Virus record (IMG/VR): IMGVR_UViG_3300025102_004859
Location: 1-29,673 of that record
Strand: one strand, 5' to 3'
DNA length: 29,673 nucleotides
Source of the DNA: a virus
In this document: piece after piece, positions 4,658-28,025 of the stretch
Position numbering within the stretch: the stretch's first letter is position 1
Layout of the letters: each line of letters starts with the position of its first letter
Position numbers and translations under genes: made by a program
Notes under the pieces: model-generated
Database searches by the model: none
What the model was told of the DNA's origin: nothing
The model's input: the letters and a program-made list of their open reading frames with translations, nothing else

Positions 4658-4808
4658 ATTCCTTTACCTCATACAATCTGTCAAAGGTTTCTTTGTCCAT
4701 TTGTTTCTTATTTTGAAAAACCTCTTTTGCTACTTGTTCTGATGTTTTTATCACTTCGATTGTGTCTACCACTTCTTTTGTTCTTTTATTCACTAATTTG
4801 AATCGCAT
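4644..4808 (-). CDS. small hypothetical protein (54 aa)
   Basis: A 54-residue protein beginning MRFKLVNKRTKEVVDTIEVI, a likely beta-hairpin followed by a charged helix (KEVFQNKKQMDKETFDRLYEV). I use ATG 4808, which has AGAGGAC upstream and only a short overlap with the end of the glycosyltransferase gene. The in-frame ATG at 4850 would overlap by almost 60 bases without a ribosome binding site. No family recognised. Confidence 0.55.
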   Translation of the reverse strand: MRFKLVNKRTKEVVDTIEVIKTSEQVAKEVFQNKKQMDKETFDRLYEVKEYDGN

Positions 4809-6013
4809 ACTATATTGTCCTCTTGATGTTCTACCATTTGTTCTATCCATATATCAAATATGTCTAATTGAAATCTTGCTCCTTCTTCACCACTATCTTT
4901 TATAATTTTATGTAAGTTGATGAGTATTTGATAACTTTGTGCAGTTAGTTCCCAGGGATTAAACACAACCTTAATATCATATATCGGATTATTTGGAATG
5001 TCCGTATGCAATTTTTTATCCAATTGATAATCTGTGTTTGGTTGTTCTTTCTCGATATATTGTAATATCTCCTCTCTGGCAGGAACCACCATATATTGAC
5101 AATAAGGTTCTAATTGTCTAATGGTTTCTACATCTGCAGCTTCTGTTAATTCAAATCCAATACTATAATGTGGTGTAATGATTGGTTTTAGATATGGGTC
5201 GTGTTCAACCATAGTTCCCCATTTTCTTATGAAGTTTCTCGTGCTTCTTTCATTTTGTGCTAACCACTCATCAGTTTCTCTATTTTTCATAAACACTTGT
5301 CCGTCAGGATTTCGTTTTGCTCCGTCTGCAAATCGTGAACCACGACAAGTCATATGATAAACACAACCTTTTCTTGTCTGAACTACTTTATATCCTGCTA
5401 AAATAAATCTATTGAATATATCACTATCCTCTTTTGATTGTGGTGCGAACAATGGGTCGTGTCCACCAATCTTTTGGAAGTCCTCTTTATAGATAGCCCA
5501 AGGAGCGAATATACCCTCAGTAGTTTCTTGTTCTGGCTTGTAATCATTACTGAACCAATTTAATAACTCTTGCTCTTTGAACTCCTCTGGTTCTATACCG
5601 AAGTCTATTAATACCTTTTCCGGTCCTGGTGGGTGTAGTGGTGGTTCTATTCTTGTTCCACTCACAACCACACCTGGTTTGATATGTCTTAGTATCTCCT
5701 TATCAAATCCTGGTAAAGAATACATATCGGCGTGATATATCATCACAATATCATTTGTAGCATAATCATTAATTAATGTATCGTATAGAATAGTGTGTCC
5801 TAATCTTTTTGGTCCCTCGTTTCTGTGTATTTTTACATTAGCATCTTTTTCTGCTATCTCTTTCATCCACTCCCAAGTTCCGTCATCTGAAAAATCATCT
5901 GCCATACAAATCTCGTGTCTGTATCCAAGGTTTTTTCTAATACTATCATATGACCATTTGAGATATTTTAGATTTGACCTTGAAGGTTGTATAAATGATA
6001 TTGTTTTATCCAT
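4793..6013 (-). CDS. GT2-type (GT-A) glycosyltransferase with C-terminal extension
   Basis: A 406-residue enzyme. The first about 250 residues are a GT-A domain of family 2: SFIQPSRSN at the start, ADDFSDDGT (residues 38 to 46) binding the nucleotide, and HAD (94 to 96) in the place of the metal-binding DxD. A region with KEDSDIFNRFILAGYKV matches the acceptor-side ED motif. The last 150 residues form a separate domain beginning around ITPHYSIGFEL, which I do not recognise. It would transfer a sugar from a nucleotide donor. The acceptor is unknown. ATG 6013 overlaps the upstream stop by 8 bases. This is the last gene of the glycan block. Confidence 0.85.
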   Translation of the reverse strand: MDKTISFIQPSRSNLKYLKWSYDSIRKNLGYRHEICMADDFSDDGTWEWMKEIAEKDANVKIHRNEGPKRLGHTILYDTLINDYATNDIVMIYHADMYSLPGFDKEILRHIKPGVVVSGTRIEPPLHPPGPEKVLIDFGIEPEEFKEQELLNWFSNDYKPEQETTEGIFAPWAIYKEDFQKIGGHDPLFAPQSKEDSDIFNRFILAGYKVVQTRKGCVYHMTCRGSRFADGAKRNPDGQVFMKNRETDEWLAQNERSTRNFIRKWGTMVEHDPYLKPIITPHYSIGFELTEAADVETIRQLEPYCQYMVVPAREEILQYIEKEQPNTDYQLDKKLHTDIPNNPIYDIKVVFNPWELTAQSYQILINLHKIIKDSGEEGARFQLDIFDIWIEQMVEHQEDNIVCDSN

Positions 6014-6938
6014 TTTTAAATTCCTTGTTTACTTTTTGGAAATCTTTTAACCAAGCTTCCTCTGAATAATGTTTATCAAATAATTCTCTCGTTTGTTCTG
6101 AACACTCATTGTAGAAGAATTTATCCTCATATAGTTTTTTTAATATTCTTTGAGCACCCTGTATATCTCCTACCTCAACCGTAGTTTGTGGGTGTAATAA
6201 ATCTTGTGTATCTAATCCACCATATCCTAAACAAGGTGTTCCGTGCCAACTTAGATTCATACTAAATGTTCCAGCTGCATGTGTTCTCATCATATGAATT
6301 CCAACTTTGTATTTACCACACTCTTTTATCCACTCTCTCCAACTTAGATAAGGTAGATAAGTGATATCTGGAATCATATCTTCCTCTTGTTGTTTTCTAC
6401 CCATTGATACATTTGTGATTGGTTGATTTACTGCGTGAGCTATCAAATAACTATCCAACCCACTATACCAACTCGTAAAATTACCACCCAATATAATTCC
6501 CTCTTTATCATTTGAATATTGAGCACTTTCTAATCCCTCTGGCAACATAAGAGTTCTCATCACTCTTACATCTTTACAACCTAATCCTTTATAATATTTG
6601 ATGTCTGATTCATTATGACACCAAACCCAATCTGCTTTTCTTAGATTTTCAACAAATTGAAATTGTTGTTCAACTGAGTAATCTTGGAAATACCAATGTG
6701 GTCCCTCTTGCATTATCGCAATCTTATCACAATGTTGTTTGAACCAATCAACATCTAAGTTTGGTTTTGTTTTTGGTATCGTGACCACCCCTAAATCATA
6801 TTTCTCTGTCGGTGTTTTTCCGTAAGGACACCAATCTGCGTCCATCATTATTGACCAAGCTATATCATTTCTTGCATTTGGAAATGTTCTCTCTACTTTT
6901 CCTACGATACCACTTTCTGAAAAGAATACTACTTTCAT
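6006..6938 (-). CDS. GT-B-like glycosyltransferase
   Basis: A 310-residue protein with Rossmann-like halves typical of GT-B enzymes. The N-terminal half begins MKVVFFSESGIVGKVERTFP. The C-terminal half opens with ILGGNFTSWYSGLDSY and contains WIKECGKYKVGIHMMRTHAAGT followed by SWHGTPCLGYGG, the kind of glycine-rich donor-binding segment seen in GT4-type enzymes, without a clean E-x7-E. The ATG overlaps the previous stop as ATGA. The family is assigned by fold-like pattern only, so the sugar specificity is open. It is flanked by a GT2 and a deacetylase in the glycan operon. Confidence 0.7.
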   Translation of the reverse strand: MKVVFFSESGIVGKVERTFPNARNDIAWSIMMDADWCPYGKTPTEKYDLGVVTIPKTKPNLDVDWFKQHCDKIAIMQEGPHWYFQDYSVEQQFQFVENLRKADWVWCHNESDIKYYKGLGCKDVRVMRTLMLPEGLESAQYSNDKEGIILGGNFTSWYSGLDSYLIAHAVNQPITNVSMGRKQQEEDMIPDITYLPYLSWREWIKECGKYKVGIHMMRTHAAGTFSMNLSWHGTPCLGYGGLDTQDLLHPQTTVEVGDIQGAQRILKKLYEDKFFYNECSEQTRELFDKHYSEEAWLKDFQKVNKEFKNG

Positions 6939-7606
6939 TTTATTTCCGATATTGTTTTGAATTGTAACTCATTGTATTGTGATAATAAATATTTGACAAC
7001 TTGTTGAAAATGTAAATAATTTTTCTCACTCCAAACATTGTCGTTCCAATCCCCCTGGATATGTGATTGAAACATAAAAGTCTCCCCGTACAAATTGATA
7101 TTATCTGTTTCGTGTATCCCGTCTGCTCCCACAAAATGTTGAGTGTCAAATTGAATACCCTGGTTTATTTGTTCGTGTTGTGCCACCCAATCAAAATAAC
7201 TTGATATAGCAGTGGCTGCTTCTTGTTGAATACCCCAACCTGGCGCTCTAAATCCTTTTGGTTTGTGTCCACATTGTTCCCATAAGTCTAATGACTCCTG
7301 AATTCTTTCGGTTGCCTCTACGAAGTTCAATTCTAAGAACTCCTGGTCTCCTATCTGTTCAAATGTATATTTCTGAACATCGTGATAATGTCCGTGGTTT
7401 GCCAGTTCAACCCAGTCAAATTGTTTCCAATATGATACCCAGTCTTTTGTCAACTTATACTTATGATGATAATAACTTGGGCAGAATAGGGTAAATTTGA
7501 CCCCAAATTCGTCATTTAACGAACGCAAATAATCAACTTGGACATCACCCTCGCATCCCCAACCTTGTTCTGGGTGCAAATCATCAATCGCTACAACTAA
7601 GTTCAT
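6935..7606 (-). CDS. polysaccharide deacetylase (NodB-like)
   Basis: A 223-residue NodB-homology protein. Motif 1 is AIDDLHPE (Asp8, Asp9), motif 2 HGHYH (His71, His75), motif 3 FRAPGWG (Arg120), with a late SHIQ segment for the C-terminal histidine. These residues bind the metal and catalyse removal of N- or O-acetyl groups in carbohydrate esterase family 4 and related DUF2334-type proteins. No signal peptide is present, so it would act inside the cell on a nucleotide sugar or lipid-linked intermediate. ATG 7606 overlaps the previous stop as ATGA. It is the second putative deacetylase of the block (see the PIG-L domain at 9489). Confidence 0.82.
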   Translation of the reverse strand: MNLVVAIDDLHPEQGWGCEGDVQVDYLRSLNDEFGVKFTLFCPSYYHHKYKLTKDWVSYWKQFDWVELANHGHYHDVQKYTFEQIGDQEFLELNFVEATERIQESLDLWEQCGHKPKGFRAPGWGIQQEAATAISSYFDWVAQHEQINQGIQFDTQHFVGADGIHETDNINLYGETFMFQSHIQGDWNDNVWSEKNYLHFQQVVKYLLSQYNELQFKTISEIK

Positions 7607-8583
7607 TTTTTCAATTCTTTCTTGTTAAATGGTTCTTGTGAGTAGAATAACTTATTTAAATTACCCTTTGATATTTCATTATATTCTTTATACCAACCTC
7701 TTGTTGACCTTTTGAAGTGTGTGTTTTTAGATTGGTCCTCATCTTTGACATAATTTCTTTTTCTGGTATGATTTCTATTATGAACTTTCAATATATTTTT
7801 GATGACATATTGTTTGTAGTTTTCTCCCATATGTAATCTACAACTTTCTAAAAATGCACTATCGTCTCCGTTCATAAATACTGCCGGTGGAATATTTGCA
7901 CCTGTTCTCAATAAGTCTGATGATATTATTAGTCCACTTCCGTCAAACTTTGGATAGGTTATCATTTGAACATCTAATTCTGTTGTCTTAGAATTAACTT
8001 CGTCCATTTCCTCTTGGCTCATAGTATATCTGATACTCCAAGGTGATGATTCTGCTAATTTTGTATCCTCTGGGGTATCCATTGAATAGTATGGTTTATC
8101 TGTAAACTCCGGGTGTTCTAATACTTTCCAACTATCGTCCCACATTTTTCTAATACCAAATGTTGCTATAAATCTGTTGATATTGTTAGACTTAGAGTGT
8201 TCCATAAGTTGTTCTAATATTCCGAACATTTGTCTTGGCATTAAACAATCTGATTCACCCCATATAATATAATCACACTCATTACATTGGTTATTTAGTT
8301 CTCTACGATAGTCTGCCATTGTGTATGGTTTATCATTATCCTCATAGAATAAACTTACGAAATCATATTTCTTTTCAAGTTTTTCAATCTTGGCATAAAT
8401 AGATTGTAGAGCTGTGCTCTCCTCAAAATACTCTGACATATTCCACATCATCTCTACCTTGACATTTTCTTTGTTCTCAATATCTTGTAATGCCAGATGA
8501 ACTGATTTTAGATACTCTTCCACCATTTCTATTTCATAGAACATAACGTGGCACCCTATGATATATTTGTTATTTAATTTCAT
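7603..8583 (-). CDS. GT-A-like glycosyltransferase
   Basis: A 326-residue protein with an N-terminal region that reads as a divergent GT-A fold: start IIGCHVMFYEIEMVEEYLKS, a strand with a DxD-like motif at YIIWGESDCLMP (Glu110-Ser-Asp112), and later YPKFDGSGLIISSDLLR and FMNGDDSAFLESCRLHMG. The last resembles the acceptor or catalytic 'ED' region of family 2. The C-terminus is basic and polar (RNHTRKRNYVKDEDQ). The substrate is unknown. The ATG overlaps the upstream stop by 14 bases. Confidence in GT-A is good, the exact family is not certain. Confidence 0.72.
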   Translation of the reverse strand: MKLNNKYIIGCHVMFYEIEMVEEYLKSVHLALQDIENKENVKVEMMWNMSEYFEESTALQSIYAKIEKLEKKYDFVSLFYEDNDKPYTMADYRRELNNQCNECDYIIWGESDCLMPRQMFGILEQLMEHSKSNNINRFIATFGIRKMWDDSWKVLEHPEFTDKPYYSMDTPEDTKLAESSPWSIRYTMSQEEMDEVNSKTTELDVQMITYPKFDGSGLIISSDLLRTGANIPPAVFMNGDDSAFLESCRLHMGENYKQYVIKNILKVHNRNHTRKRNYVKDEDQSKNTHFKRSTRGWYKEYNEISKGNLNKLFYSQEPFNKKELKK

Positions 8584-9499
8584 TTTTAATTACCTCTAAT
8601 AATTCTGTGTAGTCATTATCACCAGTTTCATTTACTTTGTGTTCATATGTCTTTTCATTTATCTTACCAATGATATCAAATACTGGAATACATTTATTAT
8701 TTGATAGTCTTTGAAAATATGAGTTCTCTCCAAAATAGTTTGGTCTTAGTTCTTTTCCTTGAGTTACATAAGATATTACTGGTCTGTCCCACAAACAACT
8801 TAAAACCGTACTACCACCACAAGGTGCTATAAAATAATCCGTGTTTGCCATTAACATTAGTTGTGTTGTGTTGTAATCATATTTATCCACTAAGTCATCA
8901 AATAAATGAACATTATCAAAATACTTTGGTAAATCTCTATCCGATATGTTCCCAACTTCCTCAACATCTGCCCTAATGTCCAGTCCCGATTGCATAGTGC
9001 TTACTTCATTTTGGTCCATTGGAAACTCTCCACCAAAAGTTCCTGAATTGACTGGTCTTTTGTAAATCACATTATAACCCTTTTCTGTTAGATATGAAAA
9101 CATATCATATAAAGACTGAATATCAAAATAACCAAATGGTTCGTGTGCGTGTTCTAAATTGTATTTGTTTGATATGAAAACCATTTTACCCATATTGAAC
9201 TCATCATTTTTGTAATGTTCCCTATATTGTGGAACTTCCCACTCATCATAATTCAAAACACCTGGTTCCTCTATTGGATTAACTCCGTGTATCCAGTTAT
9301 TTGGTAGAGTATCTAATCCTGCTATTCTATTATCTATTGTTCTTTCGTCAAACGCTTCTCTTACATCATTACACCAGAAATAGAATGGTCTCATACCCTT
9401 TGATGTTATGATTGTTTTTACTTTATCACGATTATAATAAGCATAAGGTATGGTTAATGCTAATTCTATTCCGAACTCAGGATTAGTTTTAATAATCAT
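8570..9499 (-). CDS. GT-B-like glycosyltransferase
   Basis: A 309-residue protein. Its second half carries MANTDYFIAPCGGSTVLSC and then WDRPVISYVTQGKELR, a pattern shared with GT-B enzymes and heptosyl/fucosyltransferase-like proteins, where a Gly-Gly-Ser loop holds the nucleotide sugar. The N-terminal half begins TNPEFGIELALTIPYAYYN and has MGKMVFISNKYNLEH. I selected ATG 9499 because AAAAGG lies at the right distance. The codon at 9505 is TTG. No signal peptide or membrane segment. Substrate unknown. The call rests on pattern, so other nucleotide-binding folds remain possible. Confidence 0.62.
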   Translation of the reverse strand: MIIKTNPEFGIELALTIPYAYYNRDKVKTIITSKGMRPFYFWCNDVREAFDERTIDNRIAGLDTLPNNWIHGVNPIEEPGVLNYDEWEVPQYREHYKNDEFNMGKMVFISNKYNLEHAHEPFGYFDIQSLYDMFSYLTEKGYNVIYKRPVNSGTFGGEFPMDQNEVSTMQSGLDIRADVEEVGNISDRDLPKYFDNVHLFDDLVDKYDYNTTQLMLMANTDYFIAPCGGSTVLSCLWDRPVISYVTQGKELRPNYFGENSYFQRLSNNKCIPVFDIIGKINEKTYEHKVNETGDNDYTELLEVIKNEIK

Positions 9500-10424
9500 T
9501 TTCAACCTTTTTAATTATATGAAATCCCTCTGCATATTTACAATTTGCTTGGATACCACGATATTGTGCCATTAGTTTTAGATTTTTTGTTACATCAAAA
9601 CCAACCTTTTTATACTTTTCAAATTGACTTTTATGACACTCAGCTGATACTATCTTTTGGTCAAATGTCGTATCGATATCCACGAAGTAATTTATGTTCA
9701 TAGGATTTTCTGATTGTCTTGGTATTGGTATTTGTTCATAACAATATACATTTGGAACATATCTTGCAGCAGCCATTGTTGTTCTGAAAGTTGCTATATG
9801 GTCTTGATTACTATCTCCTGCCCAATGAGTATAGATAGTATCTATTTCGTATTCTTTGATTAGTTTCTCTAACTCTGATACACTTTCTAAATTGAATGGA
9901 ACATTTAAATCTGTAAATGGTAAATAATGTATTTCATCAACACCTAATGCTTCTGCCGCACATTGTGTTTCCTTTTTTAATTGTTCGTGAGAACGAATAA
10001 CTTTACCAGTTGTTTTATCAACTGATTGAGTATCAGTCATACAAACATAAATAACTTTATCTCCTCGTTGTTTATGTTTTATCAATGTTCCACCACAACC
10101 AAACTCTATATCGTCCGGGTGTGCTCCGATAGCCATTATATGTTTAATTTTTGGAATAGACTTATCATCAACGAACACATCAACACCTGGTTTTTTACCA
10201 ACCTCTATTTTGTGATACTTTACACCCCACTCGTCTAGTTGTTGTTTAGTAAACTCTAACCAATTCTCACCTGACCAATGACCTCTTGAAGTGGAAATAA
10301 TAATGTGATGACCCTCATCATACAACTCATTTATTCTTTTTACAACTTTTGAAAATGGTTTTGCTTCTTCATATGGAACTCCACCACTACATATCGTATT
10401 ATCTATGTCGAAACAATATTTCAC
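9489..10424 (-). CDS. fusion of HAD-type phosphatase and PIG-L (LmbE) deacetylase
   Basis: A 311-residue two-domain enzyme. Residues 1 to about 92 are a minimal HAD phosphatase: FDIDNTIC (Asp6, Asp8), IISTSRGH, and GKKPGVDVFVDD (Lys and Asp86-Asp87). From about residue 95 follows a PIG-L/LmbE N-deacetylase: AIGAHPDDIEFGCGGTL (AHPDD at 101 to 105) and, later, SNQDHIATFR for the second metal-binding cluster. Almost no linker separates them. The pair would remove a phosphate and an N-acetyl (or similar) group, perhaps on one sugar. The start is GTG 10424, overlapping the upstream TGA as GTGA. The TTG at 10442 is a weaker choice. Confidence 0.87.
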   Translation of the reverse strand: MKYCFDIDNTICSGGVPYEEAKPFSKVVKRINELYDEGHHIIISTSRGHWSGENWLEFTKQQLDEWGVKYHKIEVGKKPGVDVFVDDKSIPKIKHIMAIGAHPDDIEFGCGGTLIKHKQRGDKVIYVCMTDTQSVDKTTGKVIRSHEQLKKETQCAAEALGVDEIHYLPFTDLNVPFNLESVSELEKLIKEYEIDTIYTHWAGDSNQDHIATFRTTMAAARYVPNVYCYEQIPIPRQSENPMNINYFVDIDTTFDQKIVSAECHKSQFEKYKKVGFDVTKNLKLMAQYRGIQANCKYAEGFHIIKKVENDY

Positions 10425-11368
10425 AATACTATCTCGTCCCAATATCTCGTAATGGTTATCTCGTCTGGTTCTTCAAGTTCAAGTTTATCACCAAACTTTT
10501 CTGCTAATATCACATCAACAAAATTAATACCTGCTATTGTTGTGAATATTGAACCACCACCAAATCTTGGATTGATTTCAGTTAGTTTTGGCTTTCCATC
10601 TTTGTCCTCTTTCATCTGAACACATAATGGTCCACGAAAACTTTGGTCTTGAAAAAACATCTCTAAGAACATAATCATATCTCTATTCAACTCAATCTTA
10701 CCACAAGTAGAATTACCACCCTTAACATTTACTCTTTTTCTTGGAACGATTACTTTTGTTTTATCTGTTAGTAAAACATCAATGGTCCACTCCTGTCCTG
10801 GTAAGTATTCTTGATATATCCTCATTGGTCTATTTTCAACTGCTGCTATATGTCCCGCATTTTCAAGTAATTCAAATCCACGACTACCTCGTCCCGTGAT
10901 TGGCTTTTGAACCATTGGCAAATCTAAATTTTCCCAACTCATTTCTGTTTGTGGCATATGACTACCATAAAATGTTTTGTAGTGTTTGTAGAAATCATAT
11001 TTGTCTTGACATAACTTTATTAGTTTTTCATTACACATATAAGAGTTTTCATATTTTGATAAATAAGCTAAATCCTCTTCACCTGTTGGTAAAATTAAGT
11101 CTGGTTGTTCTCGTTTGATTATTTCATCATATTGATTAAAACAATCTGGAACTTGGTCAACCACAATACCTTTATCTACCCATTGTAGTCCTACTGCATT
11201 TTCATCACTATCAACTCCTATGACATATAATTGTTCTCTATATTTAGAACGATTAATCATCTTGATAACTGATTGTCCAGCTATACCACCGACATAAGTC
11301 AACATTATTTTGAACTTGTCTTTTTTCTTTTCAAGTTCTTGTATTCCCATTACTTCTTCCAAATCCAT
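10421..11368 (-). CDS. ATP-grasp ligase (carbamoyl-phosphate synthase-like)
   Basis: A 315-residue ATP-grasp enzyme. An N-terminal Rossmann pre-domain (KIMLTYVGGIAGQSVIK, then YVIGVDSD) is followed by the ATP-grasp fold: MVQKPITGRGSRGFE (Lys155 and the flexible glycine loop), IYQEYLPGQEWTIDV, and the metal-binding strand EINPRFGGGS (264 to 273). Enzymes of this group activate a carboxylate as acyl-phosphate and join it to an amine. In a sugar operon beside a deacetylase, a plausible job is attaching an amino acid or other acid to a freed amino group. That is inference. ATG 11368 overlaps the stop before it as TAATG. A second in-frame ATG follows six codons later. Confidence 0.85.
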   Translation of the reverse strand: MDLEEVMGIQELEKKKDKFKIMLTYVGGIAGQSVIKMINRSKYREQLYVIGVDSDENAVGLQWVDKGIVVDQVPDCFNQYDEIIKREQPDLILPTGEEDLAYLSKYENSYMCNEKLIKLCQDKYDFYKHYKTFYGSHMPQTEMSWENLDLPMVQKPITGRGSRGFELLENAGHIAAVENRPMRIYQEYLPGQEWTIDVLLTDKTKVIVPRKRVNVKGGNSTCGKIELNRDMIMFLEMFFQDQSFRGPLCVQMKEDKDGKPKLTEINPRFGGGSIFTTIAGINFVDVILAEKFGDKLELEEPDEITITRYWDEIVL

Positions 11369-12234: not shown

Positions 12235-12240
12235 TTTATT

Positions 12241-12246
12241 TCTCCT
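12241..12246 (-). promoter_or_regulatory. ribosome binding site AGGAGA deciding GTG start at 12234
   Basis: AGGAGA lies six bases before GTG 12234 and just before the stop region of the radical SAM gene. Spacing and strength select this GTG over an in-frame upstream start at 12297 that has no such signal. Confidence 0.7.
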
Positions 12247-13750: not shown

Positions 13751-15470
13751 TTATCTTCCTAATCAATTCTCTTCCTGCATTTACACAAGTATCTATTTTA
13801 CCACTAAATAAACTATATACATTATCTCCCTCGTGATTAACTAGTGTTGGTCTCGCGTCATCGTGGTCTCGATTTGAAAGAACTGCTCTAAATGTATACA
13901 TAGAACCTATGTGTTCTAAGTCTGCAAACTCATCTCCAAAATACTTTACTCCACTTTCTATAAACTTATCTATTTTTGTAAGTTTTGGGTCTGGGTTTGT
14001 AATTAATCCTTTGTTCAAGTATTTCGTATATTCACTATCCCAAAATGGTTCAGTTCCCTCGTTCCAAGTATGGATTGCGTGTTTCACATTACCTAAAACG
14101 TGATACTCATCTCCATATGGGTCCAAACACATAAATGGTCCGTCCATTACCACTATACTCGTATCTTCAAAAATCTTTGGTAGTTTCACAACTGGTTTTT
14201 CACACAACTCATATTGATACCATTTCTTATCATCTAATAACTGATTGATATTTGAGTATGTTGCTATTACCACCACATCATAATCTTTTTTACATTGTTC
14301 TAAATCTGTTATCTCTGTGTTTAAATACACATCTATATTAGAACCCCATAACTTTTTGTCTAGGTTTTGTCTGAGTAAAGTTGGATTGAACAATTCTTCC
14401 TCTGCTACGATTGTCAAATCACAATTAGGCATTGGTTCTCTTTCTGTGTAGGGTAAGTTCATATCATTTAAAAACTCTTTATATTCATCTGCATTTACCA
14501 AACTATCCTCAGATGCTATTGAATACATATGAGTTATACCACCATTAATCACACAATCTTGATACTTTCTTTTAAATGAATATAATCCGTCTAAACACTC
14601 TTGAGCAGTTTCTTTACTTCGTGGATAATGATAACCCTTGTGTAATCTATATTGATTGATTGAAGAAGCTCCTCTCATAATACCATCAGACTTTTCCTTG
14701 ACATCAACTTTAAAACCATAATTCATTAATGCCATAGCACTTGATAATCCAAATACTCCTGCTCCTACGACTAATGCCTTTGGATAGACTACCTCTTTTA
14801 CCTTTTCAGATAGTCTGATTGCATTTAATGACATCTTTCTATTCAATTCATAATCACCTGCATTTGAAAACAAGAAACTAAATAATGTTTTCAATGGTTC
14901 TCCACCATAATTTACCAAGTCAGTTTCATTTACGAAATGCATTGGTTCATCAGAGAAACCATATTTAAACATTGCTGTTCTTCCGTCCTCTAACTCAACT
15001 TTAAAGTCATCAGACACACCCTCAATAGATTTAATATCAAAGTCTGTATCTCCAACCCACATATAGAAATGATGATATGCTAGTCTATCTACAAAATTTA
15101 CATCTGTTTGGTTTGGTTTGGTCCAAACAAAGTAATTCATATCGTCATAAATTGGATAGTCATCTCTCCAACTAAACACATCATCAACATATAATTTACA
15201 ATTCATAACATCTGCAAACTCAAACAACTGAATAGCACTTTCATAACTTAATGTTAATGGTTTTTCACAAAATACATTTTTACCTTGTCCTAACCAATAC
15301 ATTGCTTGTTCATAGTGTAAATCGTTAGGTGTTGAAATAATAACCCAATCTGCTTGTTCTGGTTCAACGAAGTTAATGTTGAAAAAATCATCGGATAATG
15401 ACAATTCATTGATAGTCTTATCAATGACTTTCCCCCACTTACCTTTTCCTATTAGTCCTACTTTAACCAT
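13743..15470 (-). CDS. fusion of Gfo/Idh/MocA oxidoreductase and FAD-dependent (DAO-type) oxidoreductase
   Basis: A 575-residue two-enzyme fusion. Residues 1 to about 110 are the NAD(P)-binding half of a Gfo/Idh/MocA dehydrogenase: VGLIGKGKWGK, IISTPNDLH and the catalytic-region EKP at 69 to 71. A reduced C-terminal part follows to about 225. From about 230 a FAD-binding DAO-type domain begins with LVVGAGVFGLSSAMAL (GAGVFG at 236 to 241) and SINQYRLHKGYHYPRS, running to the end with a late SGKIDTCVNAG segment. The two would pair NAD-linked and FAD-linked oxidation of a sugar or amino sugar. ATG 15470 overlaps the upstream stop by 8 bases. No frameshift is visible across the junction. Confidence 0.86.
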   Translation of the reverse strand: MVKVGLIGKGKWGKVIDKTINELSLSDDFFNINFVEPEQADWVIISTPNDLHYEQAMYWLGQGKNVFCEKPLTLSYESAIQLFEFADVMNCKLYVDDVFSWRDDYPIYDDMNYFVWTKPNQTDVNFVDRLAYHHFYMWVGDTDFDIKSIEGVSDDFKVELEDGRTAMFKYGFSDEPMHFVNETDLVNYGGEPLKTLFSFLFSNAGDYELNRKMSLNAIRLSEKVKEVVYPKALVVGAGVFGLSSAMALMNYGFKVDVKEKSDGIMRGASSINQYRLHKGYHYPRSKETAQECLDGLYSFKRKYQDCVINGGITHMYSIASEDSLVNADEYKEFLNDMNLPYTEREPMPNCDLTIVAEEELFNPTLLRQNLDKKLWGSNIDVYLNTEITDLEQCKKDYDVVVIATYSNINQLLDDKKWYQYELCEKPVVKLPKIFEDTSIVVMDGPFMCLDPYGDEYHVLGNVKHAIHTWNEGTEPFWDSEYTKYLNKGLITNPDPKLTKIDKFIESGVKYFGDEFADLEHIGSMYTFRAVLSNRDHDDARPTLVNHEGDNVYSLFSGKIDTCVNAGRELIRKINE

Positions 15471-16203
15471 ACAAATAATCAAATGTTTTTTTCATCCAAT
15501 ATGGAACCGTCTTATCTTTATTTGGTAGTCCGTTAAAATGATATATCCAACCTATATCAGTAAATAACATATCCTCTGCCAGAACTTCTTTTTTCAACAT
15601 ACAACCCATATTATATTTGTAAGGTAATAATTTGACATCAACATTTTGTAATTTTAAATTAAAATTCAATGGTGTTTGGTCTGTTCCAATACCATACTTT
15701 TGTTGGATTGTGTTGATTTGTTCTATGTTTTCAAAATAAAAATCTCTCATATGTTGAAAGAACTCTCTGTGTGAATCATTGACGATTTGGAAACCACTAT
15801 TCCCGTAAGTCCAATAGTCAATCCAAGCTCCATTATATACATATTTTGAGTAGTGTTCCATACCTCTTAATACCCAGTCATAACTCCCGTCATCGTGTAT
15901 CATACAATACTTGTTGTCTGTTTCATCAAAAAAGTTTGGACAATCTGGGTGAATAATCGTATCAGCATCAACCATTAGAGTTTGATTTGCTTTGATTTCG
16001 TTAGCGTCATAGATGTCAAATAAGAAGTATCTTTGCCAAATGATATGCATATCGTCCATTGATAATACTGGTTCCTCTAATAAAAATAACTCTACATCAT
16101 TTTTATCACACCACCTTCTCCAACTTTCGATACCGATTTCGTATTCTGGTTTTAGTTGTCCGTCTTTTTTGACTGCAATAATAAACACTACATTTTTATT
16201 CAT
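15463..16203 (-). CDS. GT8-like glycosyltransferase
   Basis: A 246-residue transferase with the GT8-like pattern: start VVFIIAVKKDGQLKP, ESWRRWCDKNDVELFLLEE, then MVDADTII with the metal-binding DAD at 79 to 81, GNSGFQIVNDSHREFF and the acceptor-region GTDQTPLN. The end carries IYHFNGLPNKDKT, in the place where GT8 enzymes have HFNG. The enzyme resembles the next upstream gene in architecture and shares the ending 'W-hydrophobic-FxG', so the two are probable paralogues. The acceptor is unknown. The ATG at 16203 overlaps the upstream stop by 8 bases. Confidence 0.78.
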   Translation of the reverse strand: MNKNVVFIIAVKKDGQLKPEYEIGIESWRRWCDKNDVELFLLEEPVLSMDDMHIIWQRYFLFDIYDANEIKANQTLMVDADTIIHPDCPNFFDETDNKYCMIHDDGSYDWVLRGMEHYSKYVYNGAWIDYWTYGNSGFQIVNDSHREFFQHMRDFYFENIEQINTIQQKYGIGTDQTPLNFNLKLQNVDVKLLPYKYNMGCMLKKEVLAEDMLFTDIGWIYHFNGLPNKDKTVPYWMKKTFDYLYG

Positions 16204-16951
16204 AATTTTTCTCCACTAACTCCCAAGTATCTTTCATTAATCTTGTTCTATCCTCAATTGGAAATCCTGTGAAATGCCAGATATAACTATACTTGATAAA
16301 AAATGGTGTTTTATCATCTCCGTCTTGCCAGTTATGACTAAACATTTCTCTTTTGTGCATTGGAAACATATTCCACCTAATATCAAACTCTTTCGTTTTA
16401 ATACCTTGTTTTTGAACTTCATAATTACAAATCGTTTGAACTTTTCCACCACCCATTTTAGCTGTTTCATCAAGTTGTTCTGAGTTTTCTTCATATAACT
16501 TTATCAATCCGTCAAATATTGGTTTGTGTTCTTTGGTAAAAAACTTTATCGCAGAACTATAATAATTGTAAATATCTAATGTTTGGTCTGGATAATATTT
16601 CTGGTAAAACCCTGCGCTTTTATGGTTCCACCTTAAATTAGAATAGTCTTTGGACCAACACCACTCATCTGTATATAAGTCAAATGGATTAGGTGCGTCC
16701 CACTTCATCATACTATCACTATCGACATAACCTATTTTATCATAAGTATCTCCGACTTTCTCGAAAATCGTATCTTTATTCCAAACTGGAAATTTATATC
16801 TTGGATTGTGTTCATCAATCAACAAGAAGTCAACATTATTTCTTTCACACCAATATTTCCAAGACTTTATTGCATATTGAGCGTAATCGTAGTTTCTGTA
16901 TGTTGAAGTGTCGTGGTCAATAGCCACCATATAAATTAAATTTTTACTCAC
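16196..16951 (-). CDS. GT8-like glycosyltransferase (paralogue of the next gene)
   Basis: A 251-residue transferase. It opens NLIYMVAIDHDTSTYRNYDY, has SWKYWCERNNVDFLLID (close to the SWRRWCDKNDVELFLLE of its neighbour) and a metal-binding DSD in YVDSDSMM (77 to 79). A late YIWHFTGFP matches the neighbour's IYHFNGLP. The start is GTG 16951, with GGAGAG four bases upstream. The codon at 16954 is TTG. The preceding epimerase gene ends just inside this start. Substrate unknown. Divergence from the neighbour suggests an old duplication with different acceptors or sugars. Confidence 0.77.
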   Translation of the reverse strand: MSKNLIYMVAIDHDTSTYRNYDYAQYAIKSWKYWCERNNVDFLLIDEHNPRYKFPVWNKDTIFEKVGDTYDKIGYVDSDSMMKWDAPNPFDLYTDEWCWSKDYSNLRWNHKSAGFYQKYYPDQTLDIYNYYSSAIKFFTKEHKPIFDGLIKLYEENSEQLDETAKMGGGKVQTICNYEVQKQGIKTKEFDIRWNMFPMHKREMFSHNWQDGDDKTPFFIKYSYIWHFTGFPIEDRTRLMKDTWELVEKNYE

Positions 16952-17792
16952 CAATCTCTCCTTTGATGTATTTTCTTAAGTCTTCCTTTGGTTCATATCC
17001 AATCAGTCTTTTAGCTATTTGAGTATCACAAAGAGTTTCTCTTGCTTCTCCTGGTCTTTCGTCAATATATGTGGTTTCACACTTAAACATAGATGCTAAT
17101 TCATTAATGGAATGATTTACACCACTTCCTAATTCAACTATATCCCAAGAAAAATTGTTTTCTGCTGTTAAAACCATACCCTCAACTATGTCATTAACGT
17201 GTGTAAAATCTCTTCTTTGAAATCCATCACCCGTTATTGTTAATGGTTCCCCGTTTTTATATTGTTCTAAGAATATACCAACGACTGCTGCATATTCACC
17301 TGATAGTGGTTGATGGTCTCCATAAACATTGTAAAATCTACATATTGATACTTCAACTTGATACAATGTATTATACATTTCACACAATTGTTCTGATAAA
17401 TCTTTCGTGAATGTGTAAGGGTTTTTGTATTTACCCCCGTGAACTGATGAAGAACCTGCATAAATCATTCTACATTTTCTTTCCCTTACCCACTCTAATA
17501 TATTGAGTGTTCCCATTGTGTTGATTTCAAATGTATTGGCTGGGTTTTCAAATGATGGTTGTATTCTTGGAAATGCTGCTAGATGAAATACGATATCTGG
17601 TTGTTCCATATAATAACCAAAATCAACTACATCTCTAACATCAGCTGTAAAATATTCACACCCCTCTTGATGATTTTCTTCTGTTCCTGTTGAATAGTTA
17701 TCAAGACTAACTACATTATGTCCGTCTTTTAATAACCTTTTGATTAGGTTTGTTCCGATAAAACCTGCTCCACCTGTAACCATTATATTCAT
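16944..17792 (-). CDS. NAD-dependent sugar epimerase/dehydratase (GalE-like)
   Basis: A 282-residue extended SDR. TGGAGFIG (6 to 13) binds NAD, followed by LDNYSTG, FHLAAFPRIQPSFENP, YAGSSSVHG with the catalytic serine, and Y126-x3-K130 (YTFTK). Later CRFYNVYGDHQP and DGFQRRDFTHVNDI are typical of UDP-sugar 4-epimerases and the related dTDP- and GDP-sugar enzymes. At 282 residues it is somewhat shorter than the usual 310 to 340. It would supply a nucleotide sugar for the transferases around it. AGGAGT stands before ATG 17792. The exact sugar cannot be read from the sequence. Confidence 0.87.
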   Translation of the reverse strand: MNIMVTGGAGFIGTNLIKRLLKDGHNVVSLDNYSTGTEENHQEGCEYFTADVRDVVDFGYYMEQPDIVFHLAAFPRIQPSFENPANTFEINTMGTLNILEWVRERKCRMIYAGSSSVHGGKYKNPYTFTKDLSEQLCEMYNTLYQVEVSICRFYNVYGDHQPLSGEYAAVVGIFLEQYKNGEPLTITGDGFQRRDFTHVNDIVEGMVLTAENNFSWDIVELGSGVNHSINELASMFKCETTYIDERPGEARETLCDTQIAKRLIGYEPKEDLRKYIKGEIGE

Positions 17793-17800
17793 TTTTACTC

Positions 17801-18466
17801 CTATATTATATCTTCATATAACTTGTTTTGAACTTCTTGTCTTACGATATCTTTTTCGTGTTTTAAAGTCAATTCTTCGTGTGGTGGTAAATGTGAATAA
17901 GTTTTTGCTCCGTCTATTACCTCGTGAACTGGCTTGACCCATTTGATGTGGTCCGCATTTCTAAATATTCTTGCCTGATAGTCAGGAAAATTAATCCACC
18001 CCTTTTCTGTTGTTCTCCATTTCCAAAGGTTTAAATGAAAGTCTGTAATACCATTGACGATATTAACTCTTGGAACCCACACTAAATCGGTGTCATTAAT
18101 CTCTAATATCGTTGGTAATTGTTGTAGAAGTATTTCATTTGGTATTTCATCTGCGTCAATGTGAAATATAAAATCACCTGAACAATGTTCTTTTGTATAG
18201 TTTTTTAATGCTGAAAAATCTTTTCTAAAATGAAATGTATTTACTTTTAATTGTCTTGGTTGAAACCAATTATGATACTCGTATTTTTCTAATACTTTAT
18301 CAAGGGCATAAAATTCATCTTGCATAATACTTTTATCACCGACTTTAGATATATCTCGTGTGACTACCACTTCATCTTCTTTTCTAATGTGTTTAGATAA
18401 GTGGTCTAATAAGTTATCTAATTCTTTATATTCATTATAAACCGTTATTCCATAACTAATTTTCAT
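17801..18466 (-). CDS. GT2-type glycosyltransferase (WaaE/LgtF-like)
   Basis: A 221-residue GT-A enzyme. It starts ISYGITVYNEYKELDNLLDH, the strand and loop that hold the nucleotide, and has FIFHIDADEIPN with DADE at 104 to 107. The wide 'DxDE' form is typical of the WaaE/LgtF group of beta-glucosyltransferases that act on lipopolysaccharide inner core. It ends with PVHEVIDG, another feature of that group. If the relation holds, the acceptor may be a lipid-linked or lipopolysaccharide-type sugar. ATG 18466 overlaps the upstream stop by 11 bases. Confidence 0.8.
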   Translation of the reverse strand: MKISYGITVYNEYKELDNLLDHLSKHIRKEDEVVVTRDISKVGDKSIMQDEFYALDKVLEKYEYHNWFQPRQLKVNTFHFRKDFSALKNYTKEHCSGDFIFHIDADEIPNEILLQQLPTILEINDTDLVWVPRVNIVNGITDFHLNLWKWRTTEKGWINFPDYQARIFRNADHIKWVKPVHEVIDGAKTYSHLPPHEELTLKHEKDIVRQEVQNKLYEDII

Positions 18467-18947
18467 CTGGCAATGCCCTTTCTAATGCGTCCTTTTTGTC
18501 TTCCAAAATCAAGTCAACAACTCTACCAAGTGTTTGACCTATCAAATCTTTACTATCTTCAACTAAAAACACTCTTCTCTTTCTACACTCTCGTAAAAAA
18601 TATGTTCTGAATATAGGTGTCTTGTCTAAAAACTTTTGTAAATTTTCATATATTCTTTGTATTGCTCTTTCATCTGTGTAGTCTGCATTTTTGTCTGTTG
18701 CTTCAAAGTAATCATTAATTTGTTCAAACATTTGTTTCAATACCAATGGATTGATAGATTGTTTTTTTGTGTTTTCTATTTCTAATCCTATGAAAAACTC
18801 TACAATTCTATTAGTGGATTTCTTTCTATAACGATATCTTGGTGCTAATACATAAGCAGTTCTATTTGAACTCTCACCTTTCATATTTTTGTATCTAAAT
18901 CTTACGATTTGTCCAGCTTGTATTATTTGCCAATTGGTATTCTTCAT
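18456..18947 (-). CDS. conserved-type phage hypothetical protein (163 aa)
   Basis: A 163-residue soluble protein. The N-terminal 50 residues look beta-rich and basic (IIQAGQIVRFRYKNMKGESS then YVLAPRYRYRKK), like a small SH3-type barrel. The rest is helical with many charged residues and ends in LERALPDEN. I do not recognise a family with confidence. It reads as a T4-type phage structural or nucleic-acid-related protein placed inside the glycan block beside a zinc-ribbon protein. ATG 18947 overlaps the upstream TGA as ATGA, with AAGGAC before it. Confidence 0.6.
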   Translation of the reverse strand: MKNTNWQIIQAGQIVRFRYKNMKGESSNRTAYVLAPRYRYRKKSTNRIVEFFIGLEIENTKKQSINPLVLKQMFEQINDYFEATDKNADYTDERAIQRIYENLQKFLDKTPIFRTYFLRECRKRRVFLVEDSKDLIGQTLGRVVDLILEDKKDALERALPDEN

Positions 18948-19396
18948 AAGTCCTTAACGATACCCATTTTCTTACAAGCATCTAAAAATTCGTGTTGTCC
19001 GTATTCGGTTGCGTTTTCAACATCCAAAGTGTGTTCGTGTCCCTGATATTGTGGGTCTTTTTGTTCTTCCTTTGATAGTTTACGAACCTCTGCTAACTTC
19101 CAATTCCAGTTATTTTTTGTTCCCTCGGGATAAATCATACCAAACTTACCCATATTTAAAATCGTTGGAAACCAAAAGATTTCTCTTTCATAATCAAAGA
19201 ATTTTATATCTCTCATTAGTTCTGTTGAAGAATCTTCCATTTTCTTAACTGCGTCTGAATCTCTCGTGTATGTTGAATTACTCATAAATCCACAATTGAA
19301 ACAAATATATGAACTGAATTTCTCTAAATCTATTTTCTCTTCAAAACAATTATTATCATTTAAACAATGTGGACAAGTTATTTTTATCTCTGCCAT
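18944..19396 (-). CDS. zinc-ribbon protein (150 aa)
   Basis: A 150-residue protein with an N-terminal zinc ribbon: C8-x2-C11 (TCPHC) and C32-x2-C35 (CFNC). The remainder is an alpha/beta domain (FFDYEREIFWFPTILNMG, later GTKNNWNWKLAEVRKLS). An AAAGGATAA ribosome binding site precedes ATG 19396. Together with the next gene it looks like an insertion of ordinary phage genes between glycosyltransferases. I cannot give it a function beyond zinc binding, which is inferred from the cysteine pattern. Confidence 0.68.
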   Translation of the reverse strand: MAEIKITCPHCLNDNNCFEEKIDLEKFSSYICFNCGFMSNSTYTRDSDAVKKMEDSSTELMRDIKFFDYEREIFWFPTILNMGKFGMIYPEGTKNNWNWKLAEVRKLSKEEQKDPQYQGHEHTLDVENATEYGQHEFLDACKKMGIVKDL

Positions 19397-19397
19397 A

Positions 19398-20735
19398 TTA
19401 TCCTTTTTTTAATTTTGGTAATTTAAGTTTTTTAGGTTCTTTCTTCAATGTTGGTAATTTTAACTCAACTTGTTGTGGAATACCCTCTAACATAGTATCT
19501 GTGATAATGATTAGTTTTTCTTTCATCGCCTCATATGAGAAGTTTTCACGATTAACTATCATTTGTTTCTTACCACGAACCTTATATTTGTTGTAGTTTT
19601 TAAATACATCTAACATTAATCTACTAGAAATTCCATAATTTACCGTACTCCATTCTGATTCCGGTGTTGTATATCCTTTTGGAAATGCATTTGTAGGAAC
19701 TTTTGTCATCGTGTGTGGTAATTCAACAGTATATTGAGAATCTAAGAAATCTGCTTGACCTGTTGAAATTGGTGCCAAGATTGGTTTACCACTAAATGAT
19801 GCTTCTAACAATGGTCTTCCAAATCCCTCTCCGTGTGTAAATGTAATGTGTGCTTTTACTTTCGGGTGATTATACATTTGGTTCATTTCTTTATCTGATA
19901 AATCCCCGTGTAATAAATAAACATTAGGTAATTTTGCTGAACCAAAAGTAGTTTTTATATCGTTTATTTTTTTCTTTAGAGCTGTTCTATCGATGATTGA
20001 GAAATTAGCACCACTTGTTTTAAGAATTAGTGCCGGTGAATTTTTTGTATCTTTGAATGTGGTAAAGAATGTTTTTAACATCATACCGATATCTTTTCTG
20101 TCCTCTCCGAGATTACCTTGCAACCAATGTCCTACGAATAGAAAACAAAAGTCCTCATCAATCTTAGAAAATTGTTTTTTCAAGTCATCTGAAATTTCTT
20201 TTGTTTCCTTGTATAGATTAGCATCTGCTCCCTCAAATAAGACTTCACTTGGTTTTTGTAATGTAACTTCTCCAATCTTTTGCATTTTACCAGTTTGTTT
20301 AGACATATTATTATCAAACTTATCAAAGATTGTTTCTGAAAAACCTTTCTTTGAAAACTCAGATGTAAATATAACTTTATCCATACGATTACAACCCTCT
20401 ATCCAATCTGCTGGTGGTATTGTAGTTTCAATCCCCGCAGTCATACCTACATTTTTCTTTGCTATGGATGCGAATTCACTAGGTATTACAATGTGATAAT
20501 GAAGTTCTGGTTGTCTTGCCAGATTTGGTTGTCTTAAAATTCTTTTTTGTATCTCTTTATGACTTTCGTTATTTTTATCTAATGCAGTCATTGGTGTTGA
20601 ACCCCAAGGAACTGATTGGATTACAACATCATACTTATCACTTTCAATCAATGCTCTACAAATATCTCTCGCGTGGTTTCCATATCCACTACGAGTTTCA
20701 ACTGGAGCCGTTACTAATATTATTGGTTTCATCAT
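19398..20735 (-). CDS. GT-B glycosyltransferase (GT4-like) with LPxL tail repeats
   Basis: A 445-residue GT-B transferase. It begins ILVTAPVETRSGYGNHARDI, with a donor-binding C-terminal half that includes FVGHWLQGNLGEDRKD and HGEGFGRPLLEASFSGKPI. The E-x7-E motif lies at Glu303 and Glu311, as in family 4 enzymes. The last about 20 residues carry two copies of KLP-x-LKK (KLPTLKK and KLPKLKK), a basic tail that is not part of the catalytic fold. The neighbour upstream begins MQLPKLTK. ATG 20735 overlaps the upstream TGA as ATGA. A second ATG follows at 20732. Confidence 0.86.
   Translation of the reverse strand: MMKPIILVTAPVETRSGYGNHARDICRALIESDKYDVVIQSVPWGSTPMTALDKNNESHKEIQKRILRQPNLARQPELHYHIVIPSEFASIAKKNVGMTAGIETTIPPADWIEGCNRMDKVIFTSEFSKKGFSETIFDKFDNNMSKQTGKMQKIGEVTLQKPSEVLFEGADANLYKETKEISDDLKKQFSKIDEDFCFLFVGHWLQGNLGEDRKDIGMMLKTFFTTFKDTKNSPALILKTSGANFSIIDRTALKKKINDIKTTFGSAKLPNVYLLHGDLSDKEMNQMYNHPKVKAHITFTHGEGFGRPLLEASFSGKPILAPISTGQADFLDSQYTVELPHTMTKVPTNAFPKGYTTPESEWSTVNYGISSRLMLDVFKNYNKYKVRGKKQMIVNRENFSYEAMKEKLIIITDTMLEGIPQQVELKLPTLKKEPKKLKLPKLKKG
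19409..19423. repeat. copy 1 of a 15-base repeat shared by two glycosyltransferase genes
   Basis: TTAATTTTGGTAATT (plus-strand reading) encodes the KLPKL core of the C-terminal tail of the 445-residue transferase. The identical 15 bases occur at 22135-22149, in the same reading frame, encoding LPKL at the N-terminus of the neighbouring transferase. A third, inexact copy lies at about 19451-19460 (KLPTL). Confidence 0.8.
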
Positions 20736-22153
20736 ACTTTGTATACCTCATATCTTTCTCTTGGTGTCCATTTTTCAAAAGCAGTGTTCATATGGTCTTT
20801 AAATAATTGACACATATGTCTTGCTGACATCATTGCGTCATCACTACAAACCCACTCGTGTCCTTTAAATCCACACTCTTTTCTTTGTTCTTTTGTCATA
20901 TTATACCAGAACTCAATAGCATCAGCTGCTTCATACCAATCACATCTGTCATCAAAAATATATGGTGTTGGTGGTGAACCTTGTAATGAACGACTCTTAG
21001 GCCATACTGGTTTCGCCCACTCTCCGTGAGTTAGAGCTTTGTTGTCTTCCCATAGTCTCCAATCGTGTAGAGAACCAATCTTTCCGTAATCTTTATAAGT
21101 TAGATATTCTCCATTTACTTTAAATCCACATTGGTCTTGTAGTCCACCCGTAACATTAACCACGATTGGTGTTCCACACATTAGACTTTCACAAGTTCCT
21201 AATCCAAAACCCTCGTTGGATGCTAAATTGATTGTTACATCTGCTATGTTGTATAAATAATTTAAGTGTTTATTTTCTAACTTTTGTGTTGAAAATATAA
21301 TGTTTAAATCTGGACACATTTCCTGGACCACTGCTGGTAGGTCGGTTCCATTATTATCAGAAGGTTGAGTATGTAGAACAAATGCAGTCTTATCTCTTTT
21401 TTCTTTTGGTAGTTTATCTGCAAATGTTTTGAAAGCCAAAATAGTATCGGAAGTCATCTTTCTTCTGATGTTTCTATTATTGTAAAATAAACAAAATTCT
21501 ATATCTTTCCCCTGGAACAATTCTGACTTCATCTTGTTCATCTCTAATTTTTCTTTTTCGTTTTCAACCGGATAAAAGTATTTTTCATTTATTCCGTGTG
21601 GTATGTAGGTTGAGTCCCAATCTGTTCTTGGTTTATTCTGACATACATTTTGAACTATGTTGTGTGTTTGTTTTGAAATGTTTAACATTAAATCACAACT
21701 CTCATAATAAGGTTCGTTCCACCTTGGATAAGGTAAGTCGTCCCATATGTTGTAATAAAATATAGGAATATGTTGTCTGATTTCGTGTTCCATATTGTAT
21801 AACCACCCCCAAAATCTTGGGTCTGTATAAATCATAATCGCATCTGGTTTTTCTAATTTAATCAAATGTCTTAATAAGTTTGGATTACCATACCCGTCAA
21901 TTGGATAAATTTTTAATGATGCGTTTTCGACACCAGTTTCTTTTCTAACTGAGTCGTTCATATCGATAATTTTACCATTGTCTGGGTGTTTGATTGCTCC
22001 ACCAACCTGGACCCAATCATACTCATCAAGAGTTCCCATTACAATTTCTCTTGACATTGTTCCGACACCACTTGACATACGCAAATCGTCTGATAGTAAA
22101 ATTATTTTTTTCTTTTTATTTTCTGAAACCTTTGTTAATTTTGGTAATTGCAT
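20732..22153 (-). CDS. GT-B glycosyltransferase (GT4-like) with LPKL head
   Basis: A 473-residue GT-B transferase. It opens MQLPKLTKVSENKKKKI, then IILLSDDLRMSSGVGTMSRE. The donor half includes YNIADVTINLASNEGFGLGT with E-x7-E at Glu314 and Glu322, CGTPIVVNVTGG, and a late GFKGHEWV. These features match family 4 transferases. The basic N-terminal peptide resembles the C-terminal tail of the downstream transferase. AAGAGG lies just before ATG 22153. It is the first gene of the glycan block in transcription order, after a small ribbon-helix-helix gene. Confidence 0.87.
   Translation of the reverse strand: MQLPKLTKVSENKKKKIILLSDDLRMSSGVGTMSREIVMGTLDEYDWVQVGGAIKHPDNGKIIDMNDSVRKETGVENASLKIYPIDGYGNPNLLRHLIKLEKPDAIMIYTDPRFWGWLYNMEHEIRQHIPIFYYNIWDDLPYPRWNEPYYESCDLMLNISKQTHNIVQNVCQNKPRTDWDSTYIPHGINEKYFYPVENEKEKLEMNKMKSELFQGKDIEFCLFYNNRNIRRKMTSDTILAFKTFADKLPKEKRDKTAFVLHTQPSDNNGTDLPAVVQEMCPDLNIIFSTQKLENKHLNYLYNIADVTINLASNEGFGLGTCESLMCGTPIVVNVTGGLQDQCGFKVNGEYLTYKDYGKIGSLHDWRLWEDNKALTHGEWAKPVWPKSRSLQGSPPTPYIFDDRCDWYEAADAIEFWYNMTKEQRKECGFKGHEWVCSDDAMMSARHMCQLFKDHMNTAFEKWTPRERYEVYKV
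22135..22149. repeat. copy 2 of the 15-base repeat shared by two glycosyltransferase genes
   Basis: Exact partner of 19409-19423. It encodes QLPKL near the start of the 473-residue transferase. Same orientation and same reading frame as copy 1. Confidence 0.8.
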
Positions 22154-22162
22154 TACAACCTC

Positions 22163-22357
22163 TTAATATTTTGAACCACTTTTTTCTAAATTATCATACT
22201 CCAAAACTTTCTTTTGGAAGTCCTCATCATAAACAAACATATCTAATGTCCTGTTTACTAATTTTTGTAATGAAAAGTCATCTCGGATAGATTTTTCTCT
22301 AAATTTCTTGTAGAGTTCGTCAATGACTTTTACTGATGTTAGTTTTTCTTCTTTCAT
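22163..22357 (-). CDS. small ribbon-helix-helix-like protein (64 aa)
   Basis: A 64-residue protein in which a short strand (LTSVKVI) is followed by two helices (DELYKKFREKSI and SLQKLVNRTLDMFV). This is the layout of Arc/MetJ/CopG-type ribbon-helix-helix DNA-binding dimers. The helix-to-helix 'turn' RDDFSLQ and the strand sequence TSVKV are typical. The C-terminal tail is charged. It lies directly before the glycan block, so it could control transcription of that block or of a distant phage gene. No operator is identified here. Similar small proteins are common in T4-like phages. Confidence 0.65.
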   Translation of the reverse strand: MKEEKLTSVKVIDELYKKFREKSIRDDFSLQKLVNRTLDMFVYDEDFQKKVLEYDNLEKSGSKY

Positions 22358-22382
22358 AATTCTATATATATAAATATATACT

Positions 22383-28022: not shown

Positions 28023-28025
28023 TTT

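Follow-up and report, generated by a model that had tools for sequence, protein, structure and literature searches.

What would a phage make with eighteen consecutive genes given over almost entirely to sugar chemistry, and on which acceptor would the product be placed? The window analysed herein is the whole of the IMG/VR virus record IMGVR_UViG_3300025102_004859 (29,673 bases, end repeats absent), which derives from a T4-like aquatic phage. An open reading frame (ORF) scan identified a block of 18 consecutive minus-strand genes at 4793-22153 (g16 to g33, Table 1), whose neighbours either overlap by 1-53 nucleotides, as the majority do, or lie 1-8 nucleotides apart. The block comprises nine transferases or likely transferases (seven supported by family or fold, g17 and g20 weakly), seven enzymes of sugar modification and a pair of small non-sugar genes. 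An earlier note, made from the sequence alone, had given these counts and coordinates correctly, including the two non-sugar genes at 18456-19396 (g30 and g31), although g31 is nonetheless a conserved member of the locus. We propose, with moderate confidence, that these genes form a polymorphic glycan locus, in which a conserved frame and a swappable cassette would make one glycan on a conserved acceptor, a virion protein being the likeliest.

The earlier note had called for a comparison with related phages, and in these the genes are neither scattered nor unrelated: about 80 viral contigs show one locus, in which clamp loader and exonuclease are followed by g33, g32, (g31) and g29 in a retained order. 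Homologues of g33 were found in 79 viral loci as well as in Flavobacterium, Microcystis and Rhodothermus phages, g32 comes after g33 in nearly all relatives, and g31 is kept in many of them between the pair of family 4 glycosyltransferases (GT4) and the GT2 enzyme, with 30% identity to its homologue in the Flavobacterium phage immuto. At the distal end, the sugar run of most loci whose end is visible finishes with a GT2 gene that is a g16 homologue; it is the last or near-last sugar gene in the window, in immuto and in contigs L010, L109, L097, L098, L069 and G023 (our own labels), with one further sugar gene lying beyond it in L098. The locus is a fixed frame (g33, g32, g31, g29 and the distal g16) around a variable filling. 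Across 45 taxa, the pairwise identities of g33, g32 and g29 rise and fall with the identities of g37 and g38 on the replication side (Mantel p = 0.001, r 0.80-0.92), and therefore the frame transferases have been inherited with the phage. Between immuto and the Microcystis phage Mel-JY01, g33, g32 and g29 are 40-46% identical, with the exonuclease at 40% and the major capsid protein gp23 at 61%, and across nine loci the identity of g16 to the window increases with that of g33 (Spearman 0.75). The g33 homologue is itself divided in two cases, into two ORFs in G023 (11107-12416) and two annotated genes in Mel-JY01 (PP395634.1 83441-84932), and the split positions differ.

The filling varies in both length and content. 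The span from g29 to g16 is as short as 2.7 kb in Mel-JY01 and 3.7 kb in L010, measures 13 kb in the window and extends to 31 kb in G023; the 219 cassette proteins collected from 37 loci group into 105 families. Among the 24 loci with enough length on both sides, two loci have on average 6% of their genes in common over the first 5.5 kb of the cassette, whereas over the 5.5 kb lying upstream of g33 the figure is 51%. Near relatives drop or replace single cassette genes (g24 in L006 and L103, g18-g27 in L010), and larger exchanges are also visible. The window and contig 3300030060_005671 are 99.1% identical at the DNA level over 18.5 kb (4456-22985), and beyond 22985 the identity drops to 95, 92, 77 and 71% on approaching the right end of the window; since the contig ends at window position 4456, only the right-side breakpoint is within view. 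This pattern is what a recent recombination replacing the whole locus would leave: the block has been exchanged between phages. The earlier note had expected one exchangeable cassette, which holds as far as block exchange is concerned and fails as to uniformity: the synteny and gene-sharing figures rule out one uniform cassette and reveal instead a conserved frame that encloses hypervariable filling. Two of the cassettes, in L098 (4137-5774) and L109 (5663-7285), contain a fusion of a cytidylyltransferase with an HMGL-like aldolase domain, followed by an MptE-like (DUF115) protein.

In the window, the filling includes g24, a predicted radical S-adenosylmethionine (SAM) sugar deaminase. A profile search of the PDB with g24 matched only the two structures of DesII from the desosamine pathway (8hzv and 8hzy, E = 1e-85), whereas its score against TIGR04426 (351.8 bits) is below the equivalog cut-off of 450 and no aminotransferase adjoins it in the window; we regard it as a DesII-type relative that is not certified as the same enzyme. 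The residues named for DesII are the cluster cysteines, GGLE, R238, S240, Y242, D323, E408 and the essential D456 (PMC11434129). All residues named in that study are retained in g24 except Y324, which is F, the cluster cysteines and the catalytic or SAM residues being C127, C131, C134, GGLE 171-174, R222, S224, Y226, D308, E411 and D458. The DesII gene occurs in nine viral contigs (the window counted), in all of which g25 is present too and g33/g32 lie upstream, at a distance of 16-17 kb in G023 and G024. In L097 DesII is flanked by two separate genes that correspond to the two halves of g25, which favours one pathway, an argument weakened by the occurrence of g25 without DesII as well. G023 and G024 have in addition a DegT-type aminotransferase upstream. 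An aminotransferase of this type makes the DesII substrate, dTDP-4-amino-4,6-dideoxyglucose, in desosamine synthesis, and since the window has none, the amination would be supplied by the host or by parts of the phage genome beyond the window. In a close relative (contig G005, 1748-3219) the DesII copy lies in two reading frames, through either a frameshift or an assembly error.

A scan of a genome collection, which relied on short exact motifs and so missed distant relatives, retrieved DesII relatives from three SAR11 genomes, one Prochlorococcus genome and a single archaeon; in the bacteria, a Gfo/Idh gene lies nearby. A direct bacterial donor of the whole cassette was not found; SAR11 and Prochlorococcus offer only these DesII relatives and their Gfo/Idh neighbours. 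In a Prochlorococcus single-cell contig (L117, 7673-17407) the DesII relative lies between two TPR-GT41 genes, and a Gfo/Idh gene and a sugar C-methyltransferase accompany it. We found no earlier report of DesII in a phage in a literature search limited to one library.

The virus record itself, its phage flanks and the recurrence of the same locus in isolates and in contigs with gp23 rule out a host contig and bear out the phage origin that the earlier note had assigned to the block. Replication genes of T4 type adjoin the locus (clamp-loader small subunit g39, E = 2e-17; exonuclease g37, E = 2e-22; both PHROGs), and T4-type gp23 is encoded by 11 of the 17 long relatives carrying the locus, including the DesII-bearing G016, immuto, Mel-JY01 and RM378, though not within the 29.7-kb window fragment itself. 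A DNA-level search of phage records found nothing. Two cultured phages share the locus, immuto (host Flavobacterium sp. LMO8) and Mel-JY01 (host Microcystis; PP395634.1), and the Rhodothermus phage RM378, the Far-T4 reference, holds a distant version with two adjacent transferase-like genes. The window belongs to a phage lineage related to immuto and Mel-JY01 and more distantly to RM378.

Phage-directed synthesis of a glycan, as the earlier note had proposed, is supported by these data, and a route can be outlined. Host nucleoside-diphosphate sugars would be altered by the cassette enzymes through dehydration (g23), epimerisation (g28), DesII-type radical deamination (g24), reduction or oxidation (g25), deacetylation (g21 and g18) and ligation (g22). 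Soluble cytosolic transferases would then add sugars one after another to a single conserved acceptor, with an invariant stem built by the transferases of the frame and a variable outer part by those of the cassette; the order of the sugar steps, this division into stem and outer part and the acceptor are what we infer here. Contrary to the earlier note, the gene set is not complete: family searches of the window genes did not find a nucleotide-sugar pyrophosphorylase, an aminotransferase, a priming transferase or a flippase, and host precursors would therefore be needed. A priming polyprenyl-phosphate sugar transferase (PF02397 or PF00953) was found in none of the 17 long relatives and in none of the window block genes (positive controls matched in 9 and 12 of 14 genomes), and a flippase (PF13440) in none of the 17 (positive controls in 14 of 14), the polymerase, ligase and ABC transporter families not being searched. 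The block proteins have no clear membrane helix, a peak of 1.66 at residue 236 of g25 being its flavin adenine dinucleotide (FAD)-binding fold. Assembly would therefore be most simply cytosolic, sugar by sugar. We reject synthesis of an O-antigen or capsule on a lipid carrier, as the priming transferase and flippase that would define it were not detected in the 17 long relatives.

As to the acceptor, the frame is kept across host phyla and the cassette is not, which points to a conserved acceptor that belongs to the phage, bearing a stem that stays the same and an outer glycan that varies. The same frame is present in Flavobacterium and Microcystis phages, whose hosts have different envelopes, which likewise favours an acceptor carried by the phage. 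If this acceptor is a virion protein, the glycan would give each phage a particle ‘serotype’ of its own. Structure prediction, suggested by the earlier note, matched both g26 and g19 to GT-A enzymes. The g26 model (predicted local distance difference test, pLDDT, 94) has as its best fold matches a transferase of the chlorovirus PBCV-1 (2p6w/2p72/2p73), whose described role is glycosylation of the major capsid protein, and glycogenin, while g26 and g27 have no Pfam match and a search of solved structures by sequence stayed at chance level. The g19 model returned 107 fold matches at E<=0.001, and GT-A enzymes make up all of the best 50 of these 107; g19 has no family match, and the sequence search of solved structures gave nothing useful. 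The PHROGs search was uninformative for most cassette genes. By analogy, the PBCV-1 transferase as the closest fold to g26 would favour glycosylation of the capsid type, although at 10-12% identity the likeness is one of fold and not homology of function. Several points weigh against a virion glycan. The acceptor and the glycan are both still hypothetical, cytosolic transferases could equally lengthen the core of the host lipopolysaccharide (LPS) prior to its export, a divergent thymidylate-synthase-like protein of some relatives might make hydroxymethyl bases for DNA glycosylation, and the frame sits among replication genes rather than virion genes.

It is possible, though in our judgement unlikely, that the locus instead remodels the host surface, the LPS core or another cytosol-facing glycolipid being extended or capped during infection so that competitor or progeny phages no longer adsorb. 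LPS-core transferases are established to be cytosolic and to work without a lipid carrier, so that the missing flippase and priming enzyme are compatible with this explanation, Prochlorococcus and SAR11 chromosomes hold DesII and Gfo/Idh relatives, and the sugar genes of pelagimyophages have been interpreted as host-surface remodelling (PMC7029224). However, the frame transferases are phage-inherited across host phyla with differing LPS cores, and genes for lipid-linked glycan assembly (priming transferase, flippase) were not found. Host-surface remodelling was one candidate of the earlier note; its O-antigen or capsule form has become less likely, since lipid-linked assembly genes were not detected in the 17 long relatives, and its LPS-core form may still apply.

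A second candidate of that note, a glycan on modified bases of the phage DNA as protection against nucleases, appears doubtful. Glycosylation of phage DNA is well known, replication genes adjoin the locus, and some relatives encode the divergent thymidylate-synthase-like protein, which has a chance-level resemblance to CMP hydroxymethylase and in one case (G016) adjoins a DNA methyltransferase-like gene. The support is patchy: matches to PF00303 are divergent in G016, G010 and G013, weak in G008 and a true thymidylate synthase in immuto, whereas Mel-JY01, RM378 (whose frame is distant) and the 168-kb G009, three long frame-bearing records in the range 130-190 kb, have no match, and a hypervariable multi-sugar cassette would exceed the needs of nuclease protection. 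A search for TET/JBP-type DNA oxidation gave no match, was run without a positive control and is not counted as evidence. Immuto is, in addition, annotated with 7-deazaguanine genes. A 228-amino-acid (aa) divergent thymidylate-synthase-like protein is encoded in L124 (1225-1911), with homologues in G010 and G013 and no match in the annotated phage collection. Finally, it is improbable that the site gathers unrelated host sugar genes, mostly transient or little used, with no single product: the 105 families among 219 cassette proteins and the split DesII of G005 would suit such a site, but nine of nine DesII contigs also carry g25 and the upstream frame genes, g25 is fused in some contigs and split around DesII in another, the catalytic residues of g24 are retained, and the genes overlap tightly in one direction.

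Variable islands rich in glycosyltransferase and sugar-synthesis genes are already known from T4-like aquatic phages (PMC7029224). The host recognition cluster or LPS-type island of pelagimyophages and cyanomyophages described there is such a variable, glycosyltransferase-rich sugar island, but it sits within the structural genes, together with tail fibres, between VrlC and gp14, whereas the window locus adjoins the clamp loader and exonuclease and has conserved transferase bookends. In a tblastn search of the phage collection with g33, cyanophage and pelagiphage records gave no match, except for Mel-JY01. The GenBank annotations of immuto and Mel-JY01 give the same succession of exonuclease, GT4, GT4, small protein, GT2, cassette and distal GT2-type gene; their cassettes are different and smaller (7.0 and 2.7 kb), lack DesII and contain aminotransferases or methyltransferases. 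Bacterial O-antigen and capsule loci likewise have invariable flanks and a hypervariable interior of sugar genes that is swapped by recombination, and differ from the phage locus, in which no priming transferase or flippase was detected. Glycosylation of mycobacteriophage virions has been reported (Freeman et al. 2023, as cited in PMC12619734), and this system and the capsid glycosylation of PBCV-1 resemble the present one in their virus-encoded cytosolic transferases; there the acceptor is known, whereas here the virion protein is a candidate. In the literature searched we found no description of the bookended replication-side locus across a wide lineage, of its size range or of its DesII module.

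The features of the locus and of its conserved left context are collected in Table 1, where the true start of g23 is probably near 12234 and not 12297, because the homologues in relatives are 288 aa long. Further to the right, g40 (24935-26890) encodes a B12-binding radical SAM protein with a GC content of 0.26-0.27 versus about 0.33 in its surroundings, and is present in some close relatives and not in others. It is followed by three tandem prolyl-hydroxylase-type 2-oxoglutarate-Fe(II) oxygenases (g41-g43, 26878-28653), of which close relatives have two to three copies, and by a protein with two terminal Hint (intein-like) domains (28637-29668), whose homologue in L010 (3759-6023) is 754 aa long.

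Table 1 Genes of the sugar locus and its replication-side context in the window.
Gene	Feature	Coordinates	Strand	Basis
g34-g39	Conserved left context including Cas4-like exonuclease (g37) and clamp-loader small subunit (g39)	22163..24877	-	PHROGs 69 and 225; synteny
g33	GT4-type glycosyltransferase, frame gene	20732..22153	-	Pfam PF00534 (Glycos_transf_1), phrog_2170
g32	GT4-type glycosyltransferase, frame gene	19398..20735	-	PF00534 weak; phrog_2170 E=1e-16
g31	Small zinc-ribbon protein	18944..19396	-	Zn_ribbon_10 E=0.0017, below cut-off
g30	Small protein, no role assigned; near clade only	18456..18947	-	Conservation
g29	GT2 glycosyltransferase, proximal cassette bookend	17801..18466	-	PF00535 E=3e-9; conserved
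g28	Nicotinamide adenine dinucleotide (NAD)-dependent sugar epimerase/dehydratase	16944..17792	-	PF01370 E=1e-47
g27	GT-A (GT8-like) transferase, paralogue of g26	16196..16954	-	27% identity to g26, aligned family
g26	GT-A (GT8-like) transferase	15463..16203	-	Predicted model pLDDT 94; fold matches
g25	Gfo/Idh/MocA oxidoreductase fused to FAD-dependent (DAO-type) oxidoreductase	13743..15482	-	PF01408, PF01266
g24	DesII-type radical SAM sugar deaminase	12245..13750	-	TIGR04426 E=5.5e-105, below cut-off; PDB DesII E=1e-85
g23	PseB/CapD-like nucleoside-diphosphate-sugar 4,6-dehydratase	11368..12297	-	PF02719 E=1.6e-64; PseB below cut-off
g22	ATP-grasp ligase (PRK12767-like)	10421..11368	-	PF15632 E=2.9e-20
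g21	HAD phosphatase fused to PIG-L de-N-acetylase	9489..10442	-	PF02585 E=1.1e-26; HAD weak
g20	Putative GT-B transferase (weak)	8570..9505	-	TIGR04372 E=0.003, below cut-off, no other match
g19	GT-A transferase	7603..8583	-	Predicted model pLDDT 72
g18	DUF2334 polysaccharide-deacetylase-like protein	6935..7606	-	PF10096 E=3e-11
g17	Putative GT-B transferase (weak)	6006..6938	-	Profile match to GT4 C-terminal region, best E=0.0065
g16	GT2 glycosyltransferase, distal cassette bookend	4793..6013	-	PF00535 E=5.9e-11

Sugar genes of aquatic phages are usually read singly, as LPS-modifying auxiliary genes, whereas a fixed transferase frame enclosing an exchangeable cassette points to a single glycan system with one acceptor, and the same frame in the cultured phages immuto and Mel-JY01 makes this directly testable. 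An unusual chemistry also joins the known viral repertoire with the DesII-type radical SAM sugar deaminase. If the acceptor is the virion, particles would wear a changing sugar coat that affects adsorption, phage-phage competition and recognition. More tentatively, we suggest a lineage-wide phage serotype locus, in which the virion glycan stem is conserved while recombination of the cassette, which reaches 31 kb and in the window includes a radical SAM DesII pathway, varies the outer sugar from phage to phage; if this is true, phage particles diversify the way bacterial capsules do.

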